Positions 11,328-64,000 of a stretch of DNA of 64,000 nt are shown one piece after another. The translations under genes were made by a program, and so were the position numbers. The stretch spans positions 1,364,001-1,428,000 of the forward strand of contig CP069394.1 in the NCBI GenBank assembly GCA_016887485.1. Direction: 5' to 3'. The stretch comes from Chloroflexota bacterium (GTDB lineage Bacteria; Chloroflexota; Anaerolineae; Anaerolineales; Anaerolineaceae). The notes beneath the pieces are model-generated. The model did no database searches, had not been told where the DNA came from, and saw nothing but the letters and a program-made list of their open reading frames with translations. Numbering within the stretch: the first letter of the stretch is position 1; each line of letters opens with the position of its first letter.

Positions 11328-11338
11328 TTATTTCTCCC

Positions 11339-13605: not shown

Positions 13606-16019
13606 ATCCGATCAATCCCAGGAAAGCCGATCTGGTCAAGGTGATTGATTACTTTATTTTCCAGTTCTGCAATTAACTGGTTTAATTGCGGCAATGGAAT
13701 CTTATAACGTTTATTAAGATCATTCAGACTTAAAACTAGTTGCTGACCAATCGTTTTTATTTCTTCTTGTAAAGAAGACGAAGTCGTCATCATCCACTTA
13801 TTAGTAATAACTAATGTTTTAATATCATTATCAGTAAGATTGGGGTAATGATTATAGGATCTCAGGTCAAGAAATGAATCGGCTCTTCTAAGTTCTTTTT
13901 TTAGGCTAGCAAGTTCTTTGTAACAATTTATCCAAAGACTCAATATCTTGGACTCTTCCTGAGCTTCAGGATCAATCCTTAATTCTGATAAACGAGAATT
14001 TACATTTGTTTTATTGATTTTCTCAAAGTCAGCAAAAACACCTTCCTCATCACTATGTTCTTCTTCCAGCTCAGAAATTTGTGAAGTGAGATCTTCAATT
14101 TTTTCATTTAATCCATCAAGCTGTTTTTTTTCGTCCTTGAAAAATCGATCTACAAGATATGGTTTGGGGATCAAATCGCAAGCCCAACCCTTATCCTTCT
14201 CCTTGCCATTCTTATCGGTTTCAATAATCCGATAAGTCTCCGCCTTCCAGCCATCGGTTGAGATCAGATAGCAGTCATCCTGCATGGTCTCTTCCCAATA
14301 ATCCATTAGATGCTGGTAGATATCATAGGGATCAATCAACGGCAGGTCCTGGTAGTGTTCCAGCAGGTCATTGGAGAGTGTTTTGATCAGTTCTTTGGGT
14401 TTGAATCCCGGTTCGAGGGCCTTAAGTTTGGGAACCCACTTTTCCTGCCACGCGGCGAAGTGATCGGCCATTTCCTGGGTGAAAGCCATAAATTCGGGAT
14501 TTTCCTCAATGGTCGATCGGATCGCTGATTCCTTAACAGCGAGGTCAACATGTCCTGGACGGTTTTCCTTGAAGAGTGTCACCTTCAATCCCGGGAAGGC
14601 CTGCCAATAGCGCTGCAGGGCGTCAATATCCCGGGCAGGGATTCCGCCCTTCAGGTGCCCTTCGATATCCTGCAGGTCTTCCGGCTCCTGGGTGTCAATA
14701 TAGCGTGGCAGGTTGAGGTTGTATTCATGCCCCTCAATTTCTTCAAAGGACACCATCCGGGAATATTTCTCGATCTCGGTCTGGTTCTTAAAGGCGTCCA
14801 CGATCTTGTGAATATCCCGGGCGCGCAGGCGGTTCTTTGGGCCGTCCTTGATAAAGCCCTTGCTGGCGTCGATCATGAAGATGCCTTTGCGCGCCTGGGC
14901 GTTTTGTTTTTCCAACACCACAATGCAAGCCGGGATGCCTGTGCCATAAAACAGGTTAGCCGGCAGCCCGATGATGCCTTTGATGTAACCCTTGCGGATC
15001 AGGTTGCGCCTGATTTCCGCTTCCGAATTACCCCGGAAGAGCACGCCATGGGGCATGATGCAGGCCCCCACGCCGGTGCTTTTGAGCGACCGGACAATAT
15101 GCAGCAAATAAGCATAATCGCCCTGACGGTTAGGTGGCACGCCGAAGGATTCGAACCGACCATAGATATCATGATCCGGATCGAAACCGGTTCGCCAGCG
15201 TTTATCAGAGAAGGGTGGATTGGCGACCACAAAGTCAAATTGTTTGAGGGCCTCGCCTGTCAAATATTGGGGTTTTGACAGGGTGTTTTCCTGTTTGATT
15301 GTCGCTGTTGGATTGTTGTGGAGGATCATGTTCATCCGCGCCAGACCGCTGGTGGCCGCATCTTTTTCCTGGCCATAGAGGGTCACGGGAGTTGTGGCTT
15401 CCTCGCCAACTTTGAGCAGCAGTGAACCCGATCCACAGGTAGGGTCATAGACGGCGGTTTCTGCGCTGGTATTGGCTTCACGAATGCCAATCACCTGCGC
15501 AATCACCCGGCTGACCTCAGCCGGCGTATAGAATTGCCCCTTGCTCTTCCCGCTCTCCGTGGCGAAATTGCGCATCAGATATTCGTAGGCATCACCCAGC
15601 AGGTCATCATCATCCGCCCGGTTCTTGGAGAAATCCAGCGCAGGGTTTTCAAAAATGGCGATCAGGTCCGTCAGGCGGTCCACCATATCTTTTCCGGAGC
15701 CTAATTTATTCGGATCGTTGAAATCGGGAAAATCAGCACGTGATATTTGCGCGTTGGCATTGACCAGAGGGCCAATAATTTTCTTATTGATCTGGTCGCC
15801 AATGTCTGATTGGCCTTTCAACGCCACCATATCCTTGAAGCTTGCGCCTTTTGGGATATTGATTGGAGCATAGGGCGTCCCGGCATATTTATCGCTGATG
15901 TATTTGATGAACAGGAGGACCAGGACATAGTCCTTGTATTGGCTGGCATCCATGCCGCCGCGCAGGGCGTCGCAGCTTGCCCAGATTGTCGAGTAGAGTT
16001 CTGATTTTTTGAGTGCCAT
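13602..16019 (-). CDS. hsdM: Type I DNA methyltransferase subunit HsdM
   Basis: An 805-residue N6-adenine methylase subunit. The N-terminal helical domain begins with the family pattern ASCDALRGGMDASQYKDYVL. The SAM-binding motif I is VYDPTCGSGSLLLK (near residue 180) and the catalytic motif IV is VANPPFSDKRW (near 268). The C-terminal 250 residues form an extended helical, coiled-coil-like region (EKIEDLTSQISELEEEHSDE). This makes the protein longer than the usual 500-550 residues, a layout seen in one HsdM subgroup. It methylates the HsdS target and protects host DNA. It overlaps hsdS by 4 bases. Confidence 0.97.
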   Translation of the reverse strand: MALKKSELYSTIWASCDALRGGMDASQYKDYVLVLLFIKYISDKYAGTPYAPINIPKGASFKDMVALKGQSDIGDQINKKIIGPLVNANAQISRADFPDFNDPNKLGSGKDMVDRLTDLIAIFENPALDFSKNRADDDDLLGDAYEYLMRNFATESGKSKGQFYTPAEVSRVIAQVIGIREANTSAETAVYDPTCGSGSLLLKVGEEATTPVTLYGQEKDAATSGLARMNMILHNNPTATIKQENTLSKPQYLTGEALKQFDFVVANPPFSDKRWRTGFDPDHDIYGRFESFGVPPNRQGDYAYLLHIVRSLKSTGVGACIMPHGVLFRGNSEAEIRRNLIRKGYIKGIIGLPANLFYGTGIPACIVVLEKQNAQARKGIFMIDASKGFIKDGPKNRLRARDIHKIVDAFKNQTEIEKYSRMVSFEEIEGHEYNLNLPRYIDTQEPEDLQDIEGHLKGGIPARDIDALQRYWQAFPGLKVTLFKENRPGHVDLAVKESAIRSTIEENPEFMAFTQEMADHFAAWQEKWVPKLKALEPGFKPKELIKTLSNDLLEHYQDLPLIDPYDIYQHLMDYWEETMQDDCYLISTDGWKAETYRIIETDKNGKEKDKGWACDLIPKPYLVDRFFKDEKKQLDGLNEKIEDLTSQISELEEEHSDEEGVFADFEKINKTNVNSRLSELRIDPEAQEESKILSLWINCYKELASLKKELRRADSFLDLRSYNHYPNLTDNDIKTLVITNKWMMTTSSSLQEEIKTIGQQLVLSLNDLNKRYKIPLPQLNQLIAELENKVINHLDQIGFPGIDRI

Positions 16020-16032
16020 GGTGGTTGGTTTA

Positions 16033-16518
16033 TTACTCCTTGATCTTTTTTTCGTGAACCAGAAAATAACCGGATGAGCTGCGGGCCAGCGTATCCGACA
16101 TCGGATAGACCGAACTGACCGCCTGCAGCTTGTTCAGGTCTTTCATCTCAATCTTGGTAATTTTTCCTATTTTCATGAACACTTTCATGAATTGGAGGAT
16201 ATCTTTTTCAGTGTAATACGGAGGGATCAACGCCTGATCAGTCGGCAACTCCCTGCTAATTGAAAGGAGGGGCGCCTGATAAGCTGTTGATTTCTTCCGG
16301 TTGCCTTTGACCAAATAAAGATAAGTGGGGATATTCTCGGCAATCTGTTGTGTGAGTTTGTCAATCCTTATTTGAGAAATGGTCTGACCCATCTTCCCAA
16401 ACCAGACCGAGCCCTTTTTCTCAACGACTTCATTATGAAGGGCAACAACATCGCCCACATCAAATAGACTATCAGCAAATCGGACGATGAGATGGAAGGG
16501 CTTCTCTTGTTTGGCCAT
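16033..16518 (-). CDS. Unknown protein of the restriction operon
   Basis: A 161-residue soluble protein that I do not recognise. It starts MAKQEKPFHLIVRFADSLFD and includes VWFGKMGQTISQ, LYLVKGNRK and SGYFLVHEKKI at the C-terminus. The alternation of hydrophobic strands around single Trp/Phe residues suggests a small mixed alpha/beta or beta-barrel domain. It lies 2 bases after the PD-(D/E)XK gene and 13 bases before hsdM, so it belongs to the operon. An accessory or inhibitory role is only a guess from its position. Confidence 0.75.
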   Translation of the reverse strand: MAKQEKPFHLIVRFADSLFDVGDVVALHNEVVEKKGSVWFGKMGQTISQIRIDKLTQQIAENIPTYLYLVKGNRKKSTAYQAPLLSISRELPTDQALIPPYYTEKDILQFMKVFMKIGKITKIEMKDLNKLQAVSSVYPMSDTLARSSSGYFLVHEKKIKE

Positions 16519-16520
16519 GG

Positions 16521-17051
16521 TTATGCAACAAACTCCTCACCAGAGGGCAGCAAGACAACATGAACACCGGTTAACAGTGTTTTATATTTGTCCAGCTTCA
16601 TCAGTTCAAAAGTCCTTGGCTCGGTGACAAAGAATATTTTGATGTCAGCGTTAGCTTCCCGGAGTTTCTTGAAATCGTTTCTGAAGGTGTTTATCTGCTG
16701 AGCACCCAGGTCATTTGATTTATAGGGCGAGGTTGTTTTAATTTCAGCGACCAAATGCCGGCCATCCGGAAGTTTGACATCAATATCCAGGCCTGGCGCG
16801 CCTTGAGGTTTATCCGCTGCGTTGAAACCTTGCAAGTTAAATTCTTCTTCAAGGTAACGCTTTGCCAGGAGGGTTGAAACGAATCCGATGTCATTGTTGA
16901 AGTTGCCCTGGATCGATTTGATACTGTTCAGATAGTCAAACCAGGCTGCGATATCCTCGTATTCAGGATAGGGATTCTCTGATTGAAAGGAATGGATCCG
17001 ATCCAATCTCCGCCGGATGTCTTCGAGTGTATGCAATTCCCTGATTTCCAT
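16521..17051 (-). CDS. Small PD-(D/E)XK restriction-endonuclease-like protein
   Basis: A 176-residue protein. The C-terminal half has a clear nuclease-type core: APGLDIDVKLPDGRHLVAEIK, with Asp near residue 88 and EIK near 103-105. LGAQQINTFRNDFKKL (helix) and IKIFFVTEPRTFELM (strand and helix) follow. The N-terminal 60 residues are helical. It overlaps the end of the GmrSD-like gene by one base. It may supply a nuclease activity to that protein or to the type I enzyme; the substrate is unknown. Confidence 0.7.
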   Translation of the reverse strand: MEIRELHTLEDIRRRLDRIHSFQSENPYPEYEDIAAWFDYLNSIKSIQGNFNNDIGFVSTLLAKRYLEEEFNLQGFNAADKPQGAPGLDIDVKLPDGRHLVAEIKTTSPYKSNDLGAQQINTFRNDFKKLREANADIKIFFVTEPRTFELMKLDKYKTLLTGVHVVLLPSGEEFVA

Positions 17052-18946
17052 TAGCCCTCCAACAGCTTCCGCAACCGATCAGGATTCCATGTGTATTTTG
17101 CCAGTGCGATATATAAGGCTTGGCGCTCATCCAGATCCGCCTTCTTAAATTGCTCGTGGGGCTTGAAAGGAAGACCAGATTGCTTGATAAAACTGAGAAA
17201 CCCGGGATTATGCGCATAACATTGAGGACTAAGTGATTGCGCTAATAAGTTCTGGCCATAATAATGATTGTATTTTTCCTGATAGGTACAATCGTTATAA
17301 CTCGCGTTGAATTTTTTAGGTAGCAATAGGAGGCCGCCTATCCGGTTGCGATATTCGCTAAAGTCAAATGGATGGTTGAATTCATCTGTGTGACGTTCCG
17401 GATGATTTGCCCAGATGTGCTCGACTTCATAAGGGTTCTTGGGGTCGCCTTTAACATTGATATATTCTAGGTAATGGGATGGCTGGCCGGAACCACGTTC
17501 AATAGTATCCGTCATCCGCGCCAATAACCGATGAATCATATAACGGTTCTTCTTGTGAAGTGAAAACCTGTCAAAATTATCAAAATCATCTTGATCATCC
17601 AGCCGGCGAACCAAAATCGGGATCAGGTCCTCAAGGGATTTTCTCCGGATTTCCCGCATAATAAGAAACAGCGTATATTGCATCGTAGAATAATTAATGC
17701 TGTGCCAGTTCCATAGCCGACGGGCAAGGACAATTTCAAGGAAAGTAGAAACAGCCTGGATTTTTAATTGGATTGTCGATTTATCATCGTCAGGCGTGAG
17801 AGGCGCAAGAATTACTGGATACTGCAATGTCAACCCTAATTGGGCTATATGGAAAACATCTTCCAATCCAGGAAGGTATTCTGATGACGCCTTGCGTAAT
17901 ATCAGATATTGCTGCCCATAAAAAGTAAAATCATTCTTAATAAAGGTATAAAAATCGTCAGAGGTTGTTAAACCGATCCCGACTTTAATATTCTCCTTTT
18001 CTTGAACAATATCCTTATGGTCCCTGACCCATCGATGGAATTCGGTCCCCAACCGATCAAAGTCCCGTGGTTTTGCATTTTTCTTTCTCTCACGGATAGA
18101 CTGAGCATATTGGCTTCTTAACCAGGCTTTCAAAAAATCAGAAACCTCTTCAGGTGAAATTTCTTTAAGCTCATGGCTTTGAGCCTTCCAAATATTAGCA
18201 GCTTCGTCCCGTTTTTCTTCATCTATGATATTGGCCAGCAAATACCCTTTGAGCATATCTGTGGGCGTCAGCGAAAGGCCACGATCATTCATGGTCTCGA
18301 AAATCATATAAGCATCATTATCAGAATATGCTGTGATCTCCACCAGGTGAACATTATCGATCAGCCAATCAATAAAATATGGTAGGGTTTCATCTTTAAT
18401 GTCTGGATCAAAGAAGCTCTCAATATCTTTATATCGGGCGATGATATTCTTGACTGATTCGGATTGGCCATTAATTTCATAATCTTCCTGGTTGAAGATC
18501 GCTTCCATGGCCGCTGCTCGCTCCTCCACGTCCAGGTTGAATGATTTCTCACCGTATTTCTCTGAGAAGATCATTTCCTTGATGCTGACTTTGTCTTCAC
18601 GATCGCTTTGGAGATTATCGAGATAGATCAACAAGAGAGTAAGTGTTGTCAGACGCTGCTGACCATCAATTATGAACTTCTGACCATTCTTCGCGCTAAT
18701 GACAATTGAGCCAAGAAAGTACTGTCCGTAACCAGCAACGGCTTTGCGCTCGTTCTCATCTTCATGATCATCTAGAAATCGGTTGGTAAGGTCCTGGAGC
18801 AATTCCGAGACCTGCTTAGTTGTCCATTTATATTCACGCTGATAATAGTCAATGGTGTATTTGACCCCCGATAATAAGCTGCGAATTGACTTTGATACAC
18901 CACGGATTTCCCGTTGAAGTTCTTTTTCCCTCTCGGCATCTGTCAT
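17051..18946 (-). CDS. GmrSD-like DUF262/DUF1524 protein
   Basis: A 631-residue protein with both halves of the type IV restriction enzyme GmrSD in one chain. The N-terminal DUF262 (ParB-like, GmrS) shows IDGQQRLTTLTLL near residues 92-104 and IFETMNDRGLSLTPTDML near 215-235. The C-terminal DUF1524 (GmrD, His-Me-finger nuclease) shows YEVEHIWANHPERH near 505 and RIGGLLLLPKKFNASYND. Family members cut modified (for example glucosylated) phage DNA with NTP hydrolysis. It is the first gene of the operon that also encodes HsdMSR, so modification-dependent and modification-blocked restriction would be co-expressed. Confidence 0.92.
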   Translation of the reverse strand: MTDAEREKELQREIRGVSKSIRSLLSGVKYTIDYYQREYKWTTKQVSELLQDLTNRFLDDHEDENERKAVAGYGQYFLGSIVISAKNGQKFIIDGQQRLTTLTLLLIYLDNLQSDREDKVSIKEMIFSEKYGEKSFNLDVEERAAAMEAIFNQEDYEINGQSESVKNIIARYKDIESFFDPDIKDETLPYFIDWLIDNVHLVEITAYSDNDAYMIFETMNDRGLSLTPTDMLKGYLLANIIDEEKRDEAANIWKAQSHELKEISPEEVSDFLKAWLRSQYAQSIRERKKNAKPRDFDRLGTEFHRWVRDHKDIVQEKENIKVGIGLTTSDDFYTFIKNDFTFYGQQYLILRKASSEYLPGLEDVFHIAQLGLTLQYPVILAPLTPDDDKSTIQLKIQAVSTFLEIVLARRLWNWHSINYSTMQYTLFLIMREIRRKSLEDLIPILVRRLDDQDDFDNFDRFSLHKKNRYMIHRLLARMTDTIERGSGQPSHYLEYINVKGDPKNPYEVEHIWANHPERHTDEFNHPFDFSEYRNRIGGLLLLPKKFNASYNDCTYQEKYNHYYGQNLLAQSLSPQCYAHNPGFLSFIKQSGLPFKPHEQFKKADLDERQALYIALAKYTWNPDRLRKLLEG

Positions 18947-19788
18947 GATTATGATTATCCTTTGTACTGGTGTAATTAACGGTATGGCTCGCTAACAATC
19001 GTTTATGCAATAGTTAACCCAAACCCTCACCTATTATAATGCCAAGTATTCCCATCTTTAACTCAGTCTCCATCTCACTGATGATGGACGAAATAAATTT
19101 ACATGCGAGGGGCCTAGGACTATATTACCGTTATGATGCAAAATTCCAAAAAAGATATTAATCTTTTGTGAATTGGTATACCAAACGCTTTCCTTGGACT
19201 CCCTTCATAAATCAGTGTATTGGTTTTTAGGTATCCCTCTCTGGCTGGACTAAATAAAGAGAAAAACAACATATTTGACTGGTTTTTCCAAGGAGTTGGC
19301 GCGAATAATTCGATGATGGAAAAAGCATTGCAAGCTTTCATGAATTAACTGATGTTTATAGATATCAATCCCCGGATTTACTCACTATTCGGTTGTTCCC
19401 CTTATTTAATTAATAGATTAATTAAATCTTATTTCGTAATAAATATTATTAATGGAATAAGATATTAATTCATTAAGTAATCTTAAATCGTTAACCAATT
19501 TAATTGATAATTGATTAATAAATATTGATCAATTTAATAAGTTAATCGTTAATTAATATTTTATTTAAATCTAACCTTTTCAAAATAAGCTAATGGAAAG
19601 AGTATCCAAACAATAAGAAAGGGAAGACGTAATCAACCACTCCTGGCGTTCATTTTGGACTTAATGCTTGACAATTTGTCCTTTTTATGACACAATCAAG
19701 TTGTAACACTCATTCGACTTATTTTCTCACTAGTCGTACGATGTAAAGACAACTATTCACTTTTACTAGTAAGAAAGGATCCAAATTT
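18947..19788. other. Long intergenic region with a very AT-rich core
   Basis: No convincing gene lies here. A 73-codon minus-strand frame at 19120-19341 is unrecognised. From about 19395 to 19575 the sequence is almost only A and T, with many TTAATTAA-like steps and short inverted repeats such as AATTAAT and ATTGATCAAT. The region separates the divergent restriction operon and the ssb genes. It could be an easily melted origin-like or promoter region of an integrated element, but no iterons or DnaA boxes were identified. Confidence 0.5.
19668..19696 (+). promoter_or_regulatory. Putative sigma-70 promoter of the ssb pair
   Basis: TTGACA at 19668-19673 and CACAAT at 19691-19696 are separated by 17 bases. 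They lie about 95 bases upstream of the first ssb start. The -35 matches the consensus perfectly and the -10 matches at four of six positions. Confidence 0.55.
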
Positions 19789-20184
19789 ATGTCATATCAA
19801 AGAATTTTGGTTCGAGGCAATATTGGAAGCGAACCAAGAATCAAAGAATTTGCCAAGGGAGATTCTGTATGCAACTTCTCAATTGCCGTGAACGAATCAT
19901 ATACAAATCGCTCCGGGAAAAAAGTGCCCAGCACAACCTGGTTTCAATGTGCAGCCTGGAATGCAATTGGCAAGAACATTCATCAATATAAACATAAAGG
20001 CGAGCCGATATTCATAGAAGGAAAGATGATATTTAATAAAGGGAACGATGGAAATATTTACCCACAAATTATCGTTCAAACGGTGGACTTCATTGGCGGA
20101 ATTCAACAAGAATTACATGAACGCCAAGAATTACCTAAAATGTGTGCAACTGCACCTGAAGATGAGTTCCTTTGGAATGACTGA
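19789..20184 (+). CDS. ssb: Single-stranded DNA-binding protein
   Basis: A 131-residue SSB with an OB-fold in residues 1-105 (RILVRGNIGSEPRIKEF, VCNFSIAVNESY, TTWFQCAAWNAIGKNI, GEPIFIEGKMIFN). It ends in an acidic tail (EDEFLWND), but not the usual DDDIPF-type tip. It binds ssDNA during replication, repair or element transfer. AGAAAGGA lies 8 bases before the ATG. The stop overlaps the start of the next gene (TGATG), so the two are translationally coupled. Its location beside an integrase suggests the SSB belongs to the mobile element rather than the core replisome. Confidence 0.9.
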   Translation: MSYQRILVRGNIGSEPRIKEFAKGDSVCNFSIAVNESYTNRSGKKVPSTTWFQCAAWNAIGKNIHQYKHKGEPIFIEGKMIFNKGNDGNIYPQIIVQTVDFIGGIQQELHERQELPKMCATAPEDEFLWND

Positions 20185-20567
20185 TGGTTATACCAGAAAT
20201 CAATACAGAATATACTTCCTTTGAGAGTCAATCAAATACAAATTTCAAAGAAACTGAACATTTCTACAATGTTACTGTCATGGGGAAAATTGTCGCTGAA
20301 CCCTTCATCCACAATTACCCATCTGGAAAATGTGTTTGTCTTTTTAGGATCGATAAGACCGCGATTGGTATCAACGCTAATCAAAGTTCTTATGAGAAGG
20401 CGATAGAATACTGCGCAGCATACAATGAAATTGGGTGTGATATTCTGAATCAATGCCGATTAGGAGATACTATAGCCATTGAGGGATTCCTCAAATTCTA
20501 TTCAGATCGTTATGGAAAAACTATATACGATTTGATTGTGACCAACTTCATAAATATGTCCATCTGA
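20184..20567 (+). CDS. Second, divergent SSB-like OB-fold protein
   Basis: A 127-residue protein. It has the SSB layout: FYNVTVMGKIVAEPFIHNYP, then VCLFRI, YCAAYNEIGCDI, GDTIAIEGFLKFYSDRYG. It lacks the C-terminal acidic tail and keeps the core strands. It probably binds ssDNA, perhaps as partner or regulator of the first SSB. Its start overlaps the previous stop by one base. Tandem ssb genes of this kind are common on plasmids and integrative elements. A strong GC-rich hairpin follows at 20592-20639. Confidence 0.8.
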   Translation: MVIPEINTEYTSFESQSNTNFKETEHFYNVTVMGKIVAEPFIHNYPSGKCVCLFRIDKTAIGINANQSSYEKAIEYCAAYNEIGCDILNQCRLGDTIAIEGFLKFYSDRYGKTIYDLIVTNFINMSI

Positions 20568-20591
20568 TAATACAAGAAAAATCAGTGCCAA

Positions 20592-20639
20592 GACGCTCCC
20601 AGGAATCCCGTCAGAAGCCACAGGAAAGCCTGGGAGCGA
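20592..20639 (+). terminator. Putative terminator hairpin after the ssb pair
   Basis: CGCTCCCAGG and CCTGGGAGCG form a perfect 10-bp stem with a long loop, about 25 bases after the second ssb stop. There is only a weak T-tract (ATTTGTAT), so termination may be partial. Confidence 0.5.
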
Positions 20640-20752
20640 TTTGTATACAGAACATATGTTCTTGTATGCCATATAATGATTTTTCTCTTAGAAACGCTCC
20701 AAGTAATTTATCACAACTTCACATCAGGTGTTTTCTTACTACCTATAAAAGC

Positions 20753-20784
20753 AACAGCCCAATCCGAAATCGGATTGGGCTGTT
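20753..20784. repeat. Perfect 15-bp-arm palindrome, CCAATCCGA family
   Basis: Arms AACAGCCCAATCCGA and TCGGATTGGGCTGTT pair perfectly around AA. The inner CCAATCCGA/TCGGATTGG core is identical to the hairpin at 6866-6897, while the outer bases differ but still pair. It lies downstream of the minus-strand gene ending at 20936 and could act as its terminator; a weak T-tract (CTTTTATAG) follows on the minus strand. Confidence 0.65.
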
Positions 20785-20935
20785 TGGGCTCATACGCTGA
20801 ACTGCGGAAAGGTATATTTAGCAAAAACCTTCTGATCTCATGCTAATACGTGTCGATCAATCCAAGGTCTGAATTATTGCCTATCTATCAATCAATAATC
20901 CCCTCACTTTTCCCATGTGCCAAATGTAACTTGTG

Positions 20936-21535
20936 TTATTCAAACCGGCCATGGAATGACAGCGTTAGTTTTTTCCCGCAATTTGGACACGGATCACGGA
21001 CTTCAAGAAAGCCATCCTTGTTTTCCTCCCAGTTGAATTTTGTGGTAAACGTATAGCCGCAAAGACAGGTTGCTTTGACTTCTCCTCGGATTTCCCTAAC
21101 TGATCTTTTTGGGGGATGACCGATAGATAATAAACTATCTATATCTGAATTTACAGCATTTGTCTCATCCAATGATTGAAGCATTATAATAGCTTCCTTG
21201 ATTGGCAGCGGAAGCTTATCGTCTTTGAGCTTGATGAAACAAAATTCTTCAGTTGAGAATTGTTGCGCCTCATCAAGATTTGTCGTGACGTCATTTCCCT
21301 TCAGGAAAACAGGTTCTTCTGGAATAACAAATTTACCCAAATCCAATATGACCTGATTCGATGTGCATGCTTTACATACATTTCCAAACCCTCGCCCACT
21401 TGCCCCCCAATCTATGCAATTATCACAAACAAACCGGTAGCAAATTCCACAAAGATGACCTTTCGGAGGATCCCCCACATTACCTTCAATCGAGATCAAT
21501 TCGCCACACAAGTCACATTTCCGTAAAAGCTCCAT
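20936..21535 (-). CDS. Zinc-ribbon protein of unknown function
   Basis: A 199-residue protein with several paired-cysteine metal sites. The N-terminal part has CDLCGE (about residues 7-12), CGICYRFVCDNC (about 30-41) and CKAC (near 56), probably a RING- or B-box-like double zinc site. The C-terminal part has CLCGYTF and CPNCGK (about 155-190), a separate zinc ribbon. The middle is acidic and low in recognisable motifs. It may bind nucleic acid or protein. It lies between the ssb pair and the integrase on the likely integrated element. Function is unknown. Confidence 0.75.
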   Translation of the reverse strand: MELLRKCDLCGELISIEGNVGDPPKGHLCGICYRFVCDNCIDWGASGRGFGNVCKACTSNQVILDLGKFVIPEEPVFLKGNDVTTNLDEAQQFSTEEFCFIKLKDDKLPLPIKEAIIMLQSLDETNAVNSDIDSLLSIGHPPKRSVREIRGEVKATCLCGYTFTTKFNWEENKDGFLEVRDPCPNCGKKLTLSFHGRFE

Positions 21536-21606
21536 CGTTGTTCCTTTATTTACATGTAGTAGAGTTTATTTACTGGCACAAATTTCCTGATATTTTATTT
21601 ATTACG

Positions 21607-21622
21607 TATCTGACGTCAGATA
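21607..21622. promoter_or_regulatory. 16-bp perfect palindrome TATCTGACGTCAGATA
   Basis: A perfect 16-base palindrome between the integrase 3' end and the zinc-ribbon gene, about 70 bases upstream of the latter's start. A half copy (GACGTCAGATA) is at 6180-6190 beside the decayed XRE gene, and a related CACGTCAGAC lies near 7400 in the XRE promoter. It may be a regulator-binding site. Confidence 0.4.
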
Positions 21623-21636
21623 GCTGATCTGTCGTT

Positions 21637-22551
21637 TTATTGCCCCATACGATGCATCAAATGGTCTAACGGTGAAGCCACCATTTGTGCGTTTATCAAA
21701 TCTTCTGGCAACAAAGCAATATATCTTTGAGTAGTTTTTACAGACCTATGCCGCAAAATCCTCCGTAACTGTTCCACACCCCCTTTATTCCGCAAGAAAT
21801 TAGTCGCATATGTATGGCGCAATTTATGAGGACCGTAGGATCCATCAACACCAACCCTTTTTAGTTTAGTCTTGACCAATGTGGATAAACCGCTTTTTGT
21901 ATATCGACTACCCTGCTTCGTGACAAAGAAAGCATCCTCACTTAGATTTCCTACAATTTCTGGACGAATATCAAATAAGTATCGATGCATATCAAGAGTG
22001 AGCTTTTTCCCCAATGGGATTATCTCCTCGCGTCGGCCTTTTCCGTAAATCTTGCACCAACCATTATCTAAATTCACATCTTTGACATTCAGTCTTTGGA
22101 CCTCAGAAAGTCGAGCACCAGTATCAAGGAAAAATTCAAAAATGAGCCGCACCCTGAATGTGCAACGAGCATTCAGGTAAAGCCAAAGTCTATCCAATTC
22201 ATCATCACTCAATGTCTCAGGTAGTTTCTCCTCAACCTTCGGCGCCTTGACTTTATCTGTAGGCGCCAGGACCTTATATTCCTGAGCCTGAAGCCATCTA
22301 CAGTAGGTTCGAATAACAGAATAGTACTTATGGAGAGTTGCGTCTGATAACTTGCCATGACGCCCTTCCCTTTTCATTTGATACCCAAGGAATGCTCTAA
22401 CTTGCCTGGCCTCAAAGTCCTTAAGGTCAATATCCCCAAGGTAATCAACCATTTCCCCTGCCATAGATGAATAGATCTGCATTGTCTTCACAGACACATT
22501 TTCAATTTCTTTTGCTATCAACCATTCATCGACAGAGTCTTTTAGCTTCAT
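21637..22551 (-). CDS. XerC/XerD-like tyrosine recombinase (integrase)
   Basis: A 304-residue tyrosine recombinase. The N-terminal core-binding domain (residues 1-95) has the usual SAM-like start (SVDEWLIAKEIENVSVKT). The catalytic set is complete: Arg in TGARLSEV (near 145), Lys in GKGRREEI, H-x-x-R in HKLRHTYATNFLR (near 242-245), HR in ILRHRSVKTTQRY (near 268) and the nucleophile Tyr about nine residues later. It cuts and rejoins DNA at specific sites. It lies about 330 bases from a tRNA-Gly gene that is truncated at the anticodon loop, so it is the likely integrase of the element occupying that site. Confidence 0.93.
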   Translation of the reverse strand: MKLKDSVDEWLIAKEIENVSVKTMQIYSSMAGEMVDYLGDIDLKDFEARQVRAFLGYQMKREGRHGKLSDATLHKYYSVIRTYCRWLQAQEYKVLAPTDKVKAPKVEEKLPETLSDDELDRLWLYLNARCTFRVRLIFEFFLDTGARLSEVQRLNVKDVNLDNGWCKIYGKGRREEIIPLGKKLTLDMHRYLFDIRPEIVGNLSEDAFFVTKQGSRYTKSGLSTLVKTKLKRVGVDGSYGPHKLRHTYATNFLRNKGGVEQLRRILRHRSVKTTQRYIALLPEDLINAQMVASPLDHLMHRMGQ

Positions 22552-57579: not shown

Positions 57580-58290
57580 ATGTTTCAAACGGGAGGCCAT
57601 TTTGAACTCCAAAACAAGTTAGCCAGTAGAATTATACCCTTGACATTAAGAAGGCTACGCAACATGTTTAAAAAACAATCGCTATCCTCAAAAAAGAACT
57701 TCGCAAAACTATTACAAGCCAGGGATTTTATGGGAAAGGGCAACTTTCCTGAAGCTTTGAAAATATATCAACCCTTATTCAAGTGCACAGAGTCTGCATT
57801 GGTTGCAAGTGCCATTTCATCATGCTATATTCTGATTTCGGACTTTACCTCTGCATATAAATGGATCCATAAAGCAATTTCCATTGATCCCCGGGAAGAA
57901 TACATTACATCTTTGGCTTTTTACCATTGGTTTGAGGCTGATTACGAAAATTCCGCAAGACTTTATAAAGAGGTCCTGAGCATAAATCCGCACAACACTT
58001 TTGCGGCAGACCAAATCATATCAATCTATATAACTCCGGGAGGAGAACAATGGGTTGATGAAGATTACGCAAAAGATTGCCTGCTCACTATAAGCAATAA
58101 TTCCGTTATTGATCAATCATATTCTTACTATTTATTGGGAAAAATAGCATTCAAACATCATGAGTATCAGGCAGCAAGGGGATACCTGGAAAAAGCTGCG
58201 GTTTTCGGTCGGCCTTTAGGAGAACGATATAATAAAGAGATGATCGAAATGATGGAAATCATTTCCCAGGAAGGCGCTAAGGCTTCTTAG
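57580..58290 (+). CDS. TPR-repeat protein of unknown function
   Basis: A protein of 208-236 residues. Several tetratricopeptide repeats can be seen: MGKGNFPEALKIYQPLFK, SDFTSAYKWIHKAISIDP, DYENSARLYKEVLSINP and HEYQAARGYLEKAAVFG, each with the Ala/Gly/Pro spacing of TPR helix pairs. It is a protein-interaction scaffold. The first 28 residues look unlike a TPR, and the ATG at 57664 (MFKKQSLSSKKN) is an alternative start. It stands between the shikimate-like operon and the signalling cluster and may belong to neither. Confidence 0.75.
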   Translation: MFQTGGHFELQNKLASRIIPLTLRRLRNMFKKQSLSSKKNFAKLLQARDFMGKGNFPEALKIYQPLFKCTESALVASAISSCYILISDFTSAYKWIHKAISIDPREEYITSLAFYHWFEADYENSARLYKEVLSINPHNTFAADQIISIYITPGGEQWVDEDYAKDCLLTISNNSVIDQSYSYYLLGKIAFKHHEYQAARGYLEKAAVFGRPLGERYNKEMIEMMEIISQEGAKAS

Positions 58291-58994: not shown

Positions 58995-61625
58995 ATGACT
59001 GCTCCTTCTTCTGGTAATTGCGTTTTAATCACTGGCGATTTGGCTTTGGATTGGCATATCATCAATCAGGCACAAAATCAGGGGGACAGTATCGGCTGGA
59101 ACAGAAATATGTGGACCAGGGCCTGCTCTCAAATCGGCGGGGCCGGGCTGCTGGCTGATCTAATTAAACAGTCCACAGCTTTGGATCCCCAACTCCAATC
59201 AACAACATTCCTAACGCCCAATATCTCCAAGCAGCCTTTTCACCCCTGTCAGGACCAGTTTCATAACTCCTATGCTCTTTGGTCGAAATTCTCAGAGGGA
59301 AAACAATCCGTCTGGCGGGTGTCACAGTTCCTCGGGTTAGACCCGGTCGAGAGTTATGTGAAGGATGGAATAGCGCCCTTCCCCATCTCAACCACCGAAA
59401 CGCCCAATGTCCTCGTGATTGACGATGCCAACCTGGGATTCCGCGATCACCCAGAATTCTGGCCTGATGCCATTAAAAATGGGGCTGATCTGGATTGGAT
59501 CATCTACAAGATGGCTTGTCCTATCGCCCAAGGACCCCTTTGGGAACATCTCCGCGACAACTACGCCGAGAAACTGGTAGTTGTCATTCCCGTTCAAGAC
59601 CTCCGAAAGAGTGAAGTCCATATCAGCCAGGGCCTGTCCTGGGAGCGGACCGCACAGGATATTGTGTGGGAATTGGTTTATAACCCAACGATCAACAGCC
59701 TGGGAACCTGTTCAGATGTCATCGTCTCTTTCAACCCCGCCGGTGCCGTCCATCTGACCCACAGAAAAGCAGGACAGCTCAGCCCTGTGCCCGAAGGTTT
59801 CTTATATTTCGACCCGGATATCATTGAAGGCAGTTGGCGGGAAAAACACAGCGGTGAGGTTATAGGCTACACAACCTGCCTGACCAGCAGCCTTGCGCAT
59901 CAGCTCATCAAAGACCCGAAAAATCCTGATCTTTCCCAGGGCATCCAATCCGGGCTTTCAGCCATTCGGCTCCTGCACCTGGAAGGATATCAGCTCAATC
60001 AGGATAATCCTGAAAAACTTCAATTCCCAATAGAATCCATTGCCAGGCATATCACTGAGCCCTCTGCATCCTTTGCCAAGGTCAAGATCCAAAATCCAGT
60101 GTTTGTCTATGACCAAAAGGCAAGCCTATCGGATGAAGAGAGGCGCAATGGCTGGTGGACAATTCTCGAAGATCAATATCTTGAAAATCTGCATCAAATT
60201 GCGGAAAAGATTGTTCTGAATGGCATTGAGCCAACCTTGAAAAATGTCCCTCTGGGGAGATTTGGACACCTGTTATCCGTGGACCGGCAGGAAATTGAGA
60301 GTTTTCGCAGTATCCACAACCTGGCCAGCGAATATCTGAAGAAAGGGAACCAGAAGAAACCACTTTCGATTGCGGTATTTGGCGCCCCAGGTTCCGGTAA
60401 ATCCTTTGGCATCACCCAGGTGGCTCAATCACTGGCAGAGGGCCAGGTAGAGGTGTTGGAATTTAACCTCTCCCAGTTCTCCGGACCGGAAGAGATCATT
60501 GATGCTCTTCATCGCGTGCGTGATGTGGTACTGTCCGGTAAAATCCCGCTGGTCTTTTGGGATGAATTCGATTCCCGGTTGAACGACCAGGATCTGGGAT
60601 GGCTGCGCTTTTTCCTCTCCCCCATGCAGGATGGTTCCTTCCGTCAGGAGCAGATCGTTCATCCAATTGGACGTTCAATATTCGTCTTTGCTGGCGGAAC
60701 GAGTCACCGAATTGATGAATTCGGCAAGAAATTATCTGATGAAAAGTATCGGGCCGCCAAAGTGCCTGACTTTGTCAGCCGGTTGAAGGGCTTCGTGAAT
60801 ATCATGGGGCCAAACCCGCCAGAGAACACAATGGAGTCAGATCCCTATTACATCATCCGCCGGGCCATCTTATTGCGGTCACTACTTGAAAGATCCGCGA
60901 AGAATCTTTTCACCAAAATTAACGGCATAAAGGTTCTAAATATTGACGGCGGCGTACTCAAAGCTTTCCTTGAGGTAGATAGGTACAAACACGGCATCCG
61001 GTCAATGGAATCGATCATCACAATGAGTTCGCTTAGCGACAAGCATGCCTATGAGAGGTCCTGCCTGCCCCCCAGCGACCAATTGAACCTGCATGTTGAT
61101 TCGGTCGAATTCCTCTCACTTGTGCAGACCATGAAGCTGCAAGGTGAGCTGCTGGAAAAACTCGCCCAGGCAAATCACACGATCTATCAACGGATGATGA
61201 CCGGGAAATCCACCGGTTCGGCCCAGGACAGCAGTAAGAAAGATTGGGACGACCTGCCGGAGGACGAAAAGGAACAAAATCGCAATGCCATCAAAGATAT
61301 TCCCAATAAATTAGCATCCATCGGTTACGTGATGATCCCCTCCAGAAGCAACCAGCCAATCTTCCACTTCCCACAGCAAGATCAGGATGCCATTGCCCTG
61401 GCAATGATCGAACATAACAGATGGTGGAACAATAAACTGGAGATGGGCTGGGAAGTTGGCCCTGTTACCGATAAAGAAAATAAAATCCATGCCTCGATGG
61501 TCCCCTGGGAAGAACTCAGCCCGGAAGAGCAGGAAAAGGACATCGAGTTCATCCGGGCGATTCCGAAAATCCTGGCCGAAGCAGGCTATACAATGAATAA
61601 AGTGAAACAGGACGAGAAGGCTTAA
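58995..61625 (+). CDS. AAA+ ATPase with C-terminal RyR domain
   Basis: About 876 residues from the ATG at 58995 (an in-frame ATG at 58905 would add 30; AGG lies 5 bases before the chosen start). The N-terminal part begins CVLITGDLALDWHI with GGAGLLADLI near residue 47, resembling a ribokinase-like (PfkB) fold. A central AAA+ module follows: Walker A VFGAPGSGKSFG (near 462), Walker B VFWDEFDS (near 520) and a sensor strand IFVFAGGT. The C-terminal RyR domain reads LAMIEHNRWWNNKLEMGW, then WEELSPEEQEKDIEFIRAIP. A half repeat precedes it (WDDLPEDEKEQNRNAIKDIP). RyR domains occur in predicted nucleotide-signalling conflict systems with SLOG and TIR proteins, and both follow here. Confidence 0.88.
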   Translation: MTAPSSGNCVLITGDLALDWHIINQAQNQGDSIGWNRNMWTRACSQIGGAGLLADLIKQSTALDPQLQSTTFLTPNISKQPFHPCQDQFHNSYALWSKFSEGKQSVWRVSQFLGLDPVESYVKDGIAPFPISTTETPNVLVIDDANLGFRDHPEFWPDAIKNGADLDWIIYKMACPIAQGPLWEHLRDNYAEKLVVVIPVQDLRKSEVHISQGLSWERTAQDIVWELVYNPTINSLGTCSDVIVSFNPAGAVHLTHRKAGQLSPVPEGFLYFDPDIIEGSWREKHSGEVIGYTTCLTSSLAHQLIKDPKNPDLSQGIQSGLSAIRLLHLEGYQLNQDNPEKLQFPIESIARHITEPSASFAKVKIQNPVFVYDQKASLSDEERRNGWWTILEDQYLENLHQIAEKIVLNGIEPTLKNVPLGRFGHLLSVDRQEIESFRSIHNLASEYLKKGNQKKPLSIAVFGAPGSGKSFGITQVAQSLAEGQVEVLEFNLSQFSGPEEIIDALHRVRDVVLSGKIPLVFWDEFDSRLNDQDLGWLRFFLSPMQDGSFRQEQIVHPIGRSIFVFAGGTSHRIDEFGKKLSDEKYRAAKVPDFVSRLKGFVNIMGPNPPENTMESDPYYIIRRAILLRSLLERSAKNLFTKINGIKVLNIDGGVLKAFLEVDRYKHGIRSMESIITMSSLSDKHAYERSCLPPSDQLNLHVDSVEFLSLVQTMKLQGELLEKLAQANHTIYQRMMTGKSTGSAQDSSKKDWDDLPEDEKEQNRNAIKDIPNKLASIGYVMIPSRSNQPIFHFPQQDQDAIALAMIEHNRWWNNKLEMGWEVGPVTDKENKIHASMVPWEELSPEEQEKDIEFIRAIPKILAEAGYTMNKVKQDEKA

Positions 61626-61627
61626 TC

Positions 61628-62182
61628 TTGACCCGGATTGGTGTTACAGGACACAGAATCCTGGCAGAAATAGGAAAACTAAATCAAGCGATTGATATCG
61701 GTTTAATTAAAATTGAAGAATGCCTGCCTGCGCCATTCGCTATTGTCTCTTCGCTCGCTGAAGGAACAGATCAATTGGTCGCTGAACGCGCATTGACACG
61801 GTGGCCGGATTGCAGCCTGATCGTCCCCCTGCCCTTGCCAACCCCGATCTACCAATCCCAATTTACCAACCAGGATGCGCTGGCGACTTTCAACCAGCTC
61901 CTTTCCGCTGCTGATGAAATCATGTCCCCACCTGAAGCAAAAGACCTGCCGGATGCTTACCTGCAAGCCGGACAGGTGATGCTTGAGATGAGCGATGTGA
62001 TCATCGCCATCTGGGATGGAGAGCCGGCTCAGGGTATTGGTGGCACAGAAAATATCGTTGCCCTGGCACGCGAGAGGGGCATTTCACTGGTTTGGATCCA
62101 TGCCGGCAACCGCCGACCGGGGACCGACAAGCCAACGAGCCTTGGCCACGAGCAGGGCCAGGTCAGCTTTGAAGGGCTATAG
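61628..62182 (+). CDS. SLOG-superfamily nucleotide-binding protein
   Basis: A 184-residue Rossmann-like protein starting at a TTG two bases after the AAA+/RyR stop. The SLOG (LOG/DprA-like) signature is visible as TRIGVTGHRIL at the N-terminus, VSSLAEGTDQLVAERAL near residue 40 and DVIIAIWDGEPAQGIGGTEN near 127, where GG-T forms the nucleotide phosphate-binding loop. SLOG proteins are predicted sensors or producers of NAD- or nucleotide-derived signals, and some bind cADPR-type molecules. The tight spacing shows it is co-translated with the AAA+/RyR protein. Whether it senses or makes the ligand is unknown. Confidence 0.85.
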   Translation: MTRIGVTGHRILAEIGKLNQAIDIGLIKIEECLPAPFAIVSSLAEGTDQLVAERALTRWPDCSLIVPLPLPTPIYQSQFTNQDALATFNQLLSAADEIMSPPEAKDLPDAYLQAGQVMLEMSDVIIAIWDGEPAQGIGGTENIVALARERGISLVWIHAGNRRPGTDKPTSLGHEQGQVSFEGL

Positions 62183-62223
62183 CCCAGCAGAAAAAATCAA
62201 CATATTACTTGGAGAGTTAATTC

Positions 62224-63762
62224 ATGACCCATGATGTTTTCATCAGCTATTCACACACAGATCAGGCTGTCGCCAACGCAATAGTGGCCAGCCTTGAAGG
62301 CGAGGGCATCCGCTGCTGGATCGCGCCTCGGGATGTCACCCCTGGGCAGACCTGGGGCGAGGCTATTGTGGATGCCATTGAAGCCTCTCAAATCATGGTG
62401 ATGGTACTCTCCGACAATTCTAACCACTCCCGCCAGGTCCTTCGTGAAGTGGAACGGGCAACCGCCAAAGAAGTGATTATCATCCCATTCCGGATCGAAA
62501 ATATTGACCCGACAGGCGCAATGGCGTATTTTCTTTCCGCCGAACATTGGCTGGATGCGCTCACACCCCCGCTGGAAAAGCACATTAATAAACTCGTCCG
62601 GACCGTTTCAGCGTTTCTATCCGGCGAGCAGCCTCCTGACAAACCTTTCCAATCCGGCCCAAAAAAGAAGAAGTGGCTGCCTTATATGATCGGGATGGCT
62701 GCCGTTCTGGTGTTTTCCATTTTGGGCTTCCTGGTCTACAGAGCACTCAATCCGGTTCAGAATAGAGTACCTGACAGTCCTGGCACCACACCTACCTCAT
62801 CCATTGTATCCGCCATTGAGCCCACGGTAACCACTGCCTCAGTGTCCAGCTTCGAGCTGATCGGTGAATATCGGACATCTCATGCCGCTGAGGGCCTGTA
62901 CATTGAGGATAACACGCTCTACCTGGCGAATGGCGCGGACAACCTGATGCGAATAAATGTCAGCAATCCCACCAATCCCATGCCTCTGGATGTCTATAGC
63001 GCCTATGGCGCGCTGGAAGTGGCCGTTGAAAATGGCGTAGCCTATATCATCATCGGCGAGGACTCCAAAGAGTTTCTGGTGATCGACTTCAATAACAACA
63101 CATCCTTCACCTATTCCAACCAAAATAGTGATCTCCCCTGGAATTTATCTCACCTGGCCGTCCAAAATGACCTGGTACATATCACCGGTCATAATTACTG
63201 GGGCATTATTGACCTGACAGACCCGGGCAATGCCAATGAACTTTGGAGCTGGGAGCCACCGACTAATTCAGGCGTGACCTGCACCGTTGTGCTGGATGGC
63301 GATATCGCTTATATCGGTGCCGGTTGGGAAGGACTCTATGTTTTTAATATCAGCGATCCGAGCAGCCCTGAGCTCATTGGCGGCTATGACACGCCCAATT
63401 GGATCGTGGGCATGTCCCTTTCCGGTGACAACCTTTTCTTATCCCTGGGCGATACCGGCCTTCTAGCGCTGGACGTCTCGGACCCCAGCCGACCGATCAT
63501 GATGGATACCCTAGAAACCGACGGATACGTCATGGAATCCTCGGCCACCGAAGACACGCTATTCCTTACCTACATCGTCATGGATGGTTATGATGTCGTG
63601 GAAAGCGGTGTTTATGCTATTGATATCACCGACCCGGCCAAGCTGGCTATCATTGCAACCTACACTGACCTGCATCAGGCTTCAGATATCCAAGCCTGGG
63701 GAGACGCCGTTTTTGTAACGGACAAACCCTGGGGACTTGCCGTTCTGCGACTGACCCCCTAA
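62224..63762 (+). CDS. Membrane TIR-domain protein with LVIVD beta-propeller
   Basis: A 512-residue protein. Residues 1-135 form a TIR domain: strand A HDVFISYSHTD, the BB-loop region WIAPRDVTPGQTWGEAI, and the probable catalytic Glu75 in SRQVLREVERA. A basic stretch KKKKWLP leads to a single membrane helix (about 151-174). A Ser/Thr/Pro-rich linker and six or so LVIVD-type repeats follow (LMRINVSNPTNP, GLYVFNISDPSSP, GLLALDVSDPSRP, GVYAIDITDPAK), which should form an extracellular beta-propeller. GGAG precedes the ATG. The layout suggests an outside sensor coupled to an inside NADase- or signal-type TIR domain. Confidence 0.9.
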   Translation: MTHDVFISYSHTDQAVANAIVASLEGEGIRCWIAPRDVTPGQTWGEAIVDAIEASQIMVMVLSDNSNHSRQVLREVERATAKEVIIIPFRIENIDPTGAMAYFLSAEHWLDALTPPLEKHINKLVRTVSAFLSGEQPPDKPFQSGPKKKKWLPYMIGMAAVLVFSILGFLVYRALNPVQNRVPDSPGTTPTSSIVSAIEPTVTTASVSSFELIGEYRTSHAAEGLYIEDNTLYLANGADNLMRINVSNPTNPMPLDVYSAYGALEVAVENGVAYIIIGEDSKEFLVIDFNNNTSFTYSNQNSDLPWNLSHLAVQNDLVHITGHNYWGIIDLTDPGNANELWSWEPPTNSGVTCTVVLDGDIAYIGAGWEGLYVFNISDPSSPELIGGYDTPNWIVGMSLSGDNLFLSLGDTGLLALDVSDPSRPIMMDTLETDGYVMESSATEDTLFLTYIVMDGYDVVESGVYAIDITDPAKLAIIATYTDLHQASDIQAWGDAVFVTDKPWGLAVLRLTP

Positions 63763-63784
63763 TCCGATTCATTGCGAGGCAAAT

Positions 63785-64000
63785 ATGGATCGCGCCGTGT
63801 ATGTGTGCTATTCAACCAGAGATAAAACGGCCACGGATCAGGTCGTGAGACCGATCGACGATTGCAATAAGGTGTTCACCTTTTATTCCCCTTCTTATCT
63901 GGACTCCAAAGTGTGCCTTGAGGAATTCAACATTGCCCTTTGCCGACATAGAGAGTCAGACGACCCTGTTTTATTACCGGTCTATCTCTATTCCGCCATC
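63785..64000 (+). CDS. TIR-like protein, partial at the window edge
   Basis: The first 72 codons of a gene that runs off the window. It reads VYVCYSTRDKTATDQ, then FYSPSYLDSKVCLEEF and LLPVYLYSAI, matching TIR strand A, the S..C..E catalytic-Glu helix and the next strand. Only about 30 residues separate strand A from the Glu helix, where 55-65 are normal, so the middle of the domain is missing or much shortened. It starts 22 bases after the membrane TIR gene. It could be a truncated partner, a compact TIR variant or a decaying gene; the remainder is outside the window. Confidence 0.65.
   Translation, partial: MDRAVYVCYSTRDKTATDQVVRPIDDCNKVFTFYSPSYLDSKVCLEEFNIALCRHRESDDPVLLPVYLYSAI

Follow-up and report, generated by a model that had tools for sequence, protein, structure and literature searches.

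The nearest described relatives of the gene cluster analysed here are Thoeris systems, phage proteins that act on TIR-made signals, RCK channels, animal ryanodine receptors and the nucleoside triphosphate (NTP)-dependent conflict systems of multicellular prokaryotes. The cluster occupies the right-hand end of a 64,000-nucleotide stretch of DNA from a Chloroflexota bacterium of the family Anaerolineaceae (GenBank assembly GCA_016887485.1, contig CP069394.1, positions 1,364,001 to 1,428,000; hereafter the window, or G000:C1:1364001-1428000, G000 being our label for the 2.9 Mb genome). It encodes an AAA+ ATPase with RyR repeats (AAA-RyR), a SLOG-like protein and two TIR proteins, and it continues beyond the window to a channel-like protein that also carries an RyR unit (TrkA-RyR).

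Thoeris signals are made by TIR proteins (PMC13232231), and ThsA senses them through SLOG (PMC9503650). RyR domains of phages bind or cleave TIR-made 2′/3′ cyclic ADP-ribose (cADPR) through residues H75, W78, H100 and D117, according to a preprint of May 2026; six of eight phage RyR homologues bind signals, and one protein, RyDEP, destroys the TIR-made signal (PMC13232231). In humans, the cleft of RyR3 repeat-12 binds AMP-PCP and ADP (PMC12627627). The conflict systems of multicellular prokaryotes share with our cluster the use of TIR, SLOG, AAA+ or STAND and propeller parts in changeable sets (PMC7159879). In the text searched of this last source, a 2020 eLife survey, the words 'RyR' and 'ryanodine' are absent.

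As in Thoeris (types I, II and later ones), a TIR enzyme is encoded beside SLOG-like and membrane proteins, and a TIR product acting as second messenger is our working model; unlike Thoeris, the cluster also includes AAA-RyR and a channel-like RCK protein bearing an RyR unit. No SIR2 family, and hence no ThsA-type SIR2–SLOG protein, appeared in Pfam scans of the eight cluster proteins. The TIR domain of the window resembles ThsB-type models weakly (PADLOC, 1.8e-6; Pfam ThsB_TIR, 19.3 bits where 21.2 are required; NCBIfam ThcB4, 22.9 bits where 220 are required), and the TIR of a relative, genome G096, passes ThsB_TIR with 28.6 bits. We file the cluster as a variant of TIR second-messenger systems, with AAA-RyR and the RyR channel-like protein as new parts. 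Our favoured reading, which we put forward tentatively and with somewhat less than even confidence, is a TIR-driven nucleotide-signalling system that is read by RyR domains, with the channel as effector and AAA-RyR and the SLOG-like protein as reader or remover of the signal.

The evidence for this reading comes first from the genes found around AAA-RyR. A scan of genome contigs with a two-sequence AAA-RyR alignment gave 331 pattern matches and 245 relatives, of which the best 80 loci were kept; with the window locus and that of G096 they make 82. Using our own profiles, SLOG was found in 46 of these, TIR in 33 and the TrkA channel in 26. Removal of near-identical anchors (7 dropped) left 75 AAA-RyR loci. 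Within 5 kb of AAA-RyR (557 kb of flank), these hold SLOG in 33 loci, TIR in 28 (36 open reading frames, ORFs) and the channel in 21, as against 1, 3 and 1, respectively, at 5–10 kb (358 kb of flank). For TIR this amounts to 64.6 per Mb in the inner zone and 8.4 per Mb in the outer one. As a background, 41 genomes of the phylum (our own included) contain 63 TIR_2 matches, spread over 14 of them, or about 0.5 per Mb over about 134 Mb; the ratio to this figure is rough, as the background counts Pfam TIR_2 in one phylum and the AAA-RyR counts use our own profile in many. In a control, 26 loci of TrkA channels without RyR contained no TIR, SLOG or RyR gene, each locus spanning just 3.1–3.6 kb.

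The link with TIR extends to RyR genes outside the AAA-RyR family. A TIR gene lies within 1.1 kb of the RyR gene in six of the eight genomes of the phylum that carry PF02026 (G000, G096, G082, G016, G145 and G185), and in three of the six (G016, G145 and G185) TIR stands beside RyR with neither AAA-RyR nor channel. In the other two, G011 and G177, no TIR was found near RyR on contigs of 5.8 and 3.2 kb. In a congener, G260, an nSTAND2–TIR protein is encoded about 5 kb from AAA-RyR. Two loci show other combinations: in G185 a 949-aa ORF (L018:1617-5687, minus strand) matches both RyR and SLOG profiles, 21 bases from a TIR gene, and a 12 kb contig of G016 has SLOG and TIR genes on either side of a stand-alone RyR gene of 94 aa (L145:7074-12059), a trio that is possibly a minimal TIR–RyR–SLOG module.

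A first-pass annotation, made from the letters of the window alone, had called the locus a probable NAD- and nucleotide-centred system and had advised collecting syntenic loci. In the collected relatives SLOG, TIR and channel gather within 5 kb, and the concentration of TIR near AAA-RyR, a conserved TIR glutamate (below) and a kept RyR pocket all fit the idea. The co-occurrence of RyR, SLOG and TIR domains may already be in print: Burroughs et al. reportedly treated nucleotide-centred systems in 2015 and may describe RyR-bearing loci. Among the papers listed in our literature searches, which took in few subscription papers, we recognised no description of a bacterial AAA-RyR/TIR/TrkA-RyR cluster.

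The second line of evidence is the RyR pocket. AAA-RyR shares with phage RyDEP and the phage RyR-domain sponges the PF02026 family, the same pocket residues and the same spacing (PMC13232231). RyDEP, however, is a 138-aa stand-alone phage protein encoded between phosphoribosyl pyrophosphokinase and nicotinamide phosphoribosyltransferase genes, whereas in the cellular genomes studied here RyR is joined to larger proteins, an AAA+ ATPase and a channel-like one. The sequence of RyDEP (DyoEdafos gp78) carries all four pocket residues at the published numbers, and the AAA-RyR of the window keeps the whole pocket, with H807, W810, H832 and D849 at the positions of H75, W78, H100 and D117. Conservation was read from two alignments. 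The first, of RyDEP with 45 hand-picked full-length AAA-RyR proteins and 19 TrkA-RyR C termini, has H75 in 45/45, W78 in 44/45, H100 in 37/45 and D117 in 44/45 of the AAA-RyR proteins; the channels have 19/19, 16/19 and 10/19 for the first three, with D in 7/19 and N in 12/19 at the fourth. The second took the RyR regions of the 82 loci minus identical ones (77 AAA-type and 20 channel-type, cut and fused proteins included, gaps counted as misses) and gave 74/77, 70/77, 58/77 and 71/77 for AAA-RyR, and 20/20, 18/20, 10/20 and 8/20 for the channels, 12/20 of which have N for D117. Six other RyR ORFs have H75 in 6/6 and D117 in 5/6, one being cut. In the first RyR repeat of AAA-RyR, Asn stands at the D117 position in 44/45. 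Pocket residues thus tend to split in these sequences, the H/D pair being kept in AAA-RyR and the Asp frequently missing from the channel (1.7e-7 by a Fisher test of the hand-picked sequences, a value overstated because they are related).

The kept H/D pair also bears on a different explanation, in which toxicity would come from the TIR protein alone, acting as an NADase, and the RyR proteins would serve as brake or antidote, with AAA-RyR and SLOG just clearing the TIR product against self-harm. Both the retention of the RyDEP pair in AAA-RyR and the signal-destroying activity of RyDEP itself (PMC13232231) speak for it. It gives no role, however, to the channel, whose RyR unit is so often without the catalytic Asp, nor to the AAA+ motifs, which are kept in all 45 aligned relatives, and we regard it as very improbable. 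Outside cellular genomes, a bacterial stand-alone RyR protein has matches in 192 phage records, with Salmonella, Pseudomonas and Arthrobacter phages the most frequent; two unannotated records of phages from human faeces show 53–60% identity to it over 97% of its length.

AAA-RyR is the first of the four genes in the window. An in-frame ATG lies upstream at 58905, and relatives align from about 58995. The Pfam RyR family scores 55 bits on the protein (cut-off 27.4), and Pfam AAA falls just short of its own cut-off (21.1 against 21.2 bits). Its Walker B motif is VFWDEFD, and K469, S470, D523 and E524 of the two Walker motifs are kept in 45/45 aligned relatives. The N-terminal half has no Pfam name, and the first-pass annotation had overlooked it; in an AlphaFold2 (AF2) model (mean predicted local distance difference test score (pLDDT) 85.8, 45 sequences) it is predicted to adopt a ribokinase fold. 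In VIA-align, which covered the structures ranked by Foldseek, with model rows spanning the ribokinase-like part, the best comparison was with pseudouridine kinase 7c1x (Z 19.9, root-mean-square deviation (r.m.s.d.) 4.5, 291 aligned); other PfkB kinases gave Z 17–19, and Foldseek agrees on the fold. In ribokinases and PfkB kinases the catalytic Asp belongs to a GxGD motif. Around the conserved Gly of the ribokinase-like domain (columns 289–298, the motif position being set by eye), Asp occurs in 0/45 rows.

TrkA-RyR was also overlooked at first, its gene lying outside the window. In the window genome it matches RyR PF02026 with 55.7 bits (cut-off 27.4). The channel fold was modelled with AF2 on a 579-aa homologue from G096 (locus L034; 44% identical, pLDDT 82.3, 17 sequences). 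The model has TM1 at residues 6–41, a pore helix at 48–59, TM2 at 72–108, two RCK domains and a C-terminal RyR unit, the membrane-crossing (TM) helices being assigned by reading the model. A profile search of the Protein Data Bank (PDB) found animal RyR1–3 over the RyR unit (about 1e-30) and GsuK (4gx0) over the TM region and first RCK domain (3.2e-14), and Foldseek returned TrkA, GsuK, MthK and human RyR3 repeat-12. Among the structures ranked by Foldseek, VIA-align matched the model to KtrA (Z 20.7, r.m.s.d. 2.8, 262 aligned), the MtDMI1 and LjCASTOR gating rings (Z 19.8, r.m.s.d. 3.3–3.6, 288–298 aligned; LjCASTOR alone, Z 19.8, r.m.s.d. 3.6, 298 aligned) and GsuK (Z 18.8, r.m.s.d. 10.3, 348 aligned). 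The model thus indicates that TrkA-RyR is a two-TM, two-RCK channel-like protein with a C-terminal RyR unit.

The pore unit of two TM helices followed by two RCK domains is shared with the RCK channels GsuK and MthK and with plant CASTOR/DMI1; these differ from TrkA-RyR, which has a C-terminal RyR unit and a LESGxVxG-type consensus (Glu in 14/19) where K+ channels have TVGYG, the K+ selectivity signature. With animal ryanodine receptors, TrkA-RyR shares a channel-attached RyR unit related in sequence and in fold, but its body is that of an RCK-type channel and not the RyR pore. In G096, a 101-aa ORF between TIR–WD40 and WD40 genes (L014:4592-4897, minus strand) reproduces part of the RyR unit of the adjacent TrkA-RyR almost identically, which reflects either a recent partial duplication or an assembly fault.

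The larger TIR protein of the window combines a TIR_2 domain (85.1 bits) with LVIVD repeats (62.2 bits), and a single hydrophobic segment follows a KKKK stretch, as judged by eye. The position of Glu75, the presumed catalytic Glu, is E in 32 of 35 aligned domains (43 matches minus short and identical ones). The second TIR gene matches TIR_2 with 30.7 bits (cut-off 28) and, because the match covers profile positions 43–109 only, is read as a shortened TIR. In relatives, whose TIR proteins were scanned with Pfam (eight in one set and one more), the accompanying parts vary: LVIVD propellers (the window and locus L094), WD40 (G096/L034 and L056) and an nSTAND2 NTPase (G260), with concanavalin-like or tetratricopeptide (TPR) parts in further proteins. 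The TIR–propeller form recurs, as an Anaerolineaceae relative encodes a second TIR–LVIVD protein (L094:13530-15182) next to AAA-RyR and a TrkA-type gene.

The SLOG-like gene begins exactly two bases after the AAA-RyR stop. We call its product SLOG-like on account of its GVTGHR...GGT motif, together with a weak similarity to YpsA (Pfam E 0.14, below the cut-off). Naming its family by Pfam or the PDB gave nothing convincing, with stray single-member Pfam matches only, one of them DNA_processg_A at 0.0084. In relatives, SLOG directly follows AAA-RyR in 25 loci, with gaps of −205 to 41 bases (−4 to 24 in 19 of them); in 6 of 75 loci the two are fused. The domain reading of the first-pass annotation (an AAA+ protein with RyR, a SLOG protein, a membrane TIR and a second TIR) is supported, SLOG by its motif and the weak YpsA similarity.

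That annotation had also described a cluster of four consecutive plus-strand genes, all of which are present in the ORF list (Table 1). The cluster is cut by the window end, however, and continues rightward for about 3 kb to the RyR channel-like gene, as read in the downstream extension (locus L002, G000:C1:1422500-1442000); nor is the four-gene order a conserved unit. The RyR matches of the genome number two in all (E 0.001) and both lie inside the cluster, as do two of its four TIR_2 matches; because of this, we consider the cluster more than a chance assembly. To the left stands a citrate-synthase-like gene, with a TPR gene in between, and to the right a pyridine-nucleotide-disulfide reductase/rhodanese gene. 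The TPR gene (57580-58290) was rejected as a cluster member: at E 1e-4, none of the 82 loci contains a homologue of it. Elsewhere in the window, two 304-aa ORFs considered as a repeat pair proved unrelated, and an Rfam scan of the window gave no matches. About 36 kb to the left, Pfam marks a separate defence island (8280-22551) with HsdR (8280-11327), HsdM (13602-16019), a GmrSD-type protein (17051-18946) and a phage-type integrase (21637-22551).

Table 1. Features of the cluster, in window positions or, where marked, positions of the downstream locus L002.
Feature	Position	Strand	Basis
AAA-RyR, 876 aa: ribokinase-like domain, AAA+ ATPase, RyR repeats	58995..61625	+	ORF, Pfam, AF2 model, conservation
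N-terminal ribokinase (PfkB)-fold domain of AAA-RyR (predicted), residues ~8-369	59016..60101	+	AF2 model, Foldseek, VIA-align
Walker A GAPGSGKS of AAA-RyR, residues 463-470	60381..60404	+	K469, S470 kept 45/45; Walker B DE = residues 523-524
C-terminal RyR repeats of AAA-RyR, residues ~717-869	61143..61601	+	PF02026; RyDEP alignment
SLOG-like protein, 184 aa, TTG start	61628..62182	+	Motif pattern; adjoins AAA-RyR in relatives
TIR-TM-LVIVD propeller protein	62224..63762	+	Pfam: TIR residues 5-113; TM ~151-173 by eye
Shortened TIR-like gene, 105 aa in total	63785..64000, ending at window position 64102 (L002:5286-5603)	+	Pfam TIR_2
Unnamed 207-aa protein	L002:5632-6255	+	No Pfam match
Reg_prop propeller	L002:6284-7453	-	Pfam
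337-aa protein, no Pfam family	L002:7380-8393	-	Pfam scan
TrkA-RyR membrane protein, 570 aa	L002:8539-10251	-	TrkA_N 73.7 bits, RyR 55.7 bits

Across relatives the parts recur in changing order. In G260, homologues of the four downstream proteins (the 207-aa protein, Reg_prop, the 337-aa protein and the channel) lie in one cluster of about 26 kb with another order and orientation, and G253 has homologues of the same four, its channel gene being cut by the contig end. Further members are nSTAND2–TIR and WD40 proteins in G260, and DUF4062–NACHT–TPR and WD40 proteins in G253. Homologues of the 207-aa protein also occur near RyR genes in G260, G253 and G261. The recurring parts are AAA-RyR, SLOG and the TrkA-RyR channel, with a changeable set of TIR, NACHT/STAND and WD40 proteins, rather than the exact four-gene order.

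By record title, AAA-RyR hosts include Chloroflexota, Acidobacteria, Planctomycetes, Actinobacteria, Bacteroidales, an archaeal metagenome-assembled genome and others. Full-length AAA-RyR occurs in 2 of 201 genomes of the phylum, PF02026 in 8 of 251, and RyR in 4 of 16 genomes of the genus. Three plasmid records match AAA-RyR, two of them over at least 80% of the query; in a Methylobacterium plasmid, two small genes separate the copy from a SIR2-family gene about 1.4 kb away. In G260, the RyR genes and the gene flanking the window cluster are more than 1.1 Mb apart. That downstream flanking gene was located in near relatives, and in the six stretches read no clean empty site could be demonstrated: the 13 genes that lie left of it in the window genome had no match there, but the stretch in G258 extends only about 1.1 kb to that side. 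The cluster is an accessory module, carried by some species and lacking in the majority of the congeners sampled.

The first-pass annotation had named a link to defence islands as a test, and this was assessed with PADLOC. Randomly picked ORFs of 120–700 aa, core genes and loci L002, L014 and L090 excluded, were scanned at a threshold of 1e-10 (149 of 334 within 5 kb, 150 of 223 at 5–10 kb; one picked ORF, L019:361-921, was left out). Within 5 kb, the 25 commonest of 57 families include RtcR-like (3), mad2 (2), mad3 (2) and AriA (2), and TnsB, TIR-TM, PDC-M72A and several type I and II methylase models with one ORF each; at 5–10 kb, the 25 commonest of 178 families include mad2 (3), mad3 (3) and RtcR-like (2), and PD-T4-6, PDC-S05 and type I specificity models with one each. 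Known defence genes are thus sparse at both distances, with no visible excess within 5 kb among the 25 commonest families of each set. The result gives no support for a defence-island setting; an immunity role is plausible.

The same result favours a reading in which the system signals for stress, envelope damage or multicellular behaviour rather than against phages, the sensor being the propeller that the TIR protein would expose outside the cell. The TIR protein has a TM segment, beyond which its LVIVD propeller would be extracellular, the flanking citrate-synthase-like and reductase/rhodanese genes of the window cluster are in keeping with such a role, and among viral contigs 31 stretches fit the AAA-RyR pattern and none encodes a relative. 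Against this stand the patchy presence of RyR in the genus and the distant location of the G260 copy, the resemblance of the nSTAND2–TIR, DUF4062–NACHT–TPR and WD40 proteins of congener clusters to immune receptors, and the action of phage RyR proteins against TIR signals (PMC13232231). We consider it rather unlikely.

For the reading we favour, a TIR-driven signal read by RyR domains, the following sequence of events can be proposed. On a trigger, the TIR protein would cleave nicotinamide adenine dinucleotide (NAD+) and yield a cyclic ADP-ribose-type signal. RyR domains would bind this signal in the pocket where phage RyDEP holds cADPR isomers and repeat-12 of animal RyR holds adenine nucleotides. 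TrkA-RyR is the likeliest effector: once ligand occupies RyR or RCK, ion flow may change and leave the cell depolarised or arrested. The soluble ribokinase–AAA-RyR protein and its SLOG partner would read the same signal. AAA-RyR may also destroy the signal, given that the RyDEP catalytic pair (H, D) is intact in its last RyR repeat, and so set a threshold or switch the response off. The most specific version, a bacterial ion channel gated by TIR-made cyclic ADP-ribose through an RyR domain, with a soluble AAA+ RyR reader/degrader, is doubtful.

Several observations weigh against this scheme. TIR is missing within 5 kb in 47 of the 75 AAA-RyR loci, the channel is that close in just 21, and 19 have none of SLOG, channel and TIR (some of the loci without TIR, and some of these 19, being on short contigs); G253 and G261 carry RyR, with no TIR on the 29 and 13.7 kb read. 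The SLOG-like protein has no significant Pfam or PDB match. TVGYG is absent from all 19 aligned TrkA-RyR proteins, which makes ion conduction and selectivity no more than putative. The channel of the window genome has H, W, N and N in its pocket, with N at the H100 and D117 positions, and the division between AAA-RyR and channels is not strict, as 8 of 20 channels keep the Asp. Tested phage homologues other than RyDEP did not degrade the signal, their high conservation notwithstanding (PMC13232231); since they bind without cleaving, a kept H/D pair is no proof of hydrolysis. Finally, repeat-12 binds ATP-like ligands and ADP, and therefore the RyR ligand here could be an ordinary adenine nucleotide.

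This last point leads to a further alternative, that RyR senses ordinary adenine nucleotides or NAD(H), so that the cluster would gauge energy or redox state and couple it to ion transport and an AAA+ machine, with the TIR proteins as separate partners. The binding of AMP-PCP and ADP by animal repeat-12 (PMC12627627) agrees with it, as do the ATP analogues, ADP and NAD carried, by their structure titles, by solved RCK/TrkA relatives, and the many AAA-RyR loci without a nearby TIR. The steep TIR gradient around AAA-RyR runs counter to it, and so does the presence of TIR beside RyR in six of eight genomes, three of them with neither AAA-RyR nor channel. We judge it unlikely.

RyR domains have very recently been shown, in phages, to bind or cleave TIR-made immune signals (PMC13232231). 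What is new here is that cellular RyR proteins, in several phyla by record title and one of them channel-like, are genetically tied to TIR genes. Whether bacterial RyR proteins are receptors for cADPR isomers, and whether a TIR signal gates an ion channel, can now be tested, as can a prokaryotic root for the old link between cADPR and the animal ryanodine receptor. If the signalling reading holds, the cluster would be a bacterial counterpart of cADPR–RyR signalling and would represent a TIR pathway that acts by ion flux instead of NAD+ depletion.

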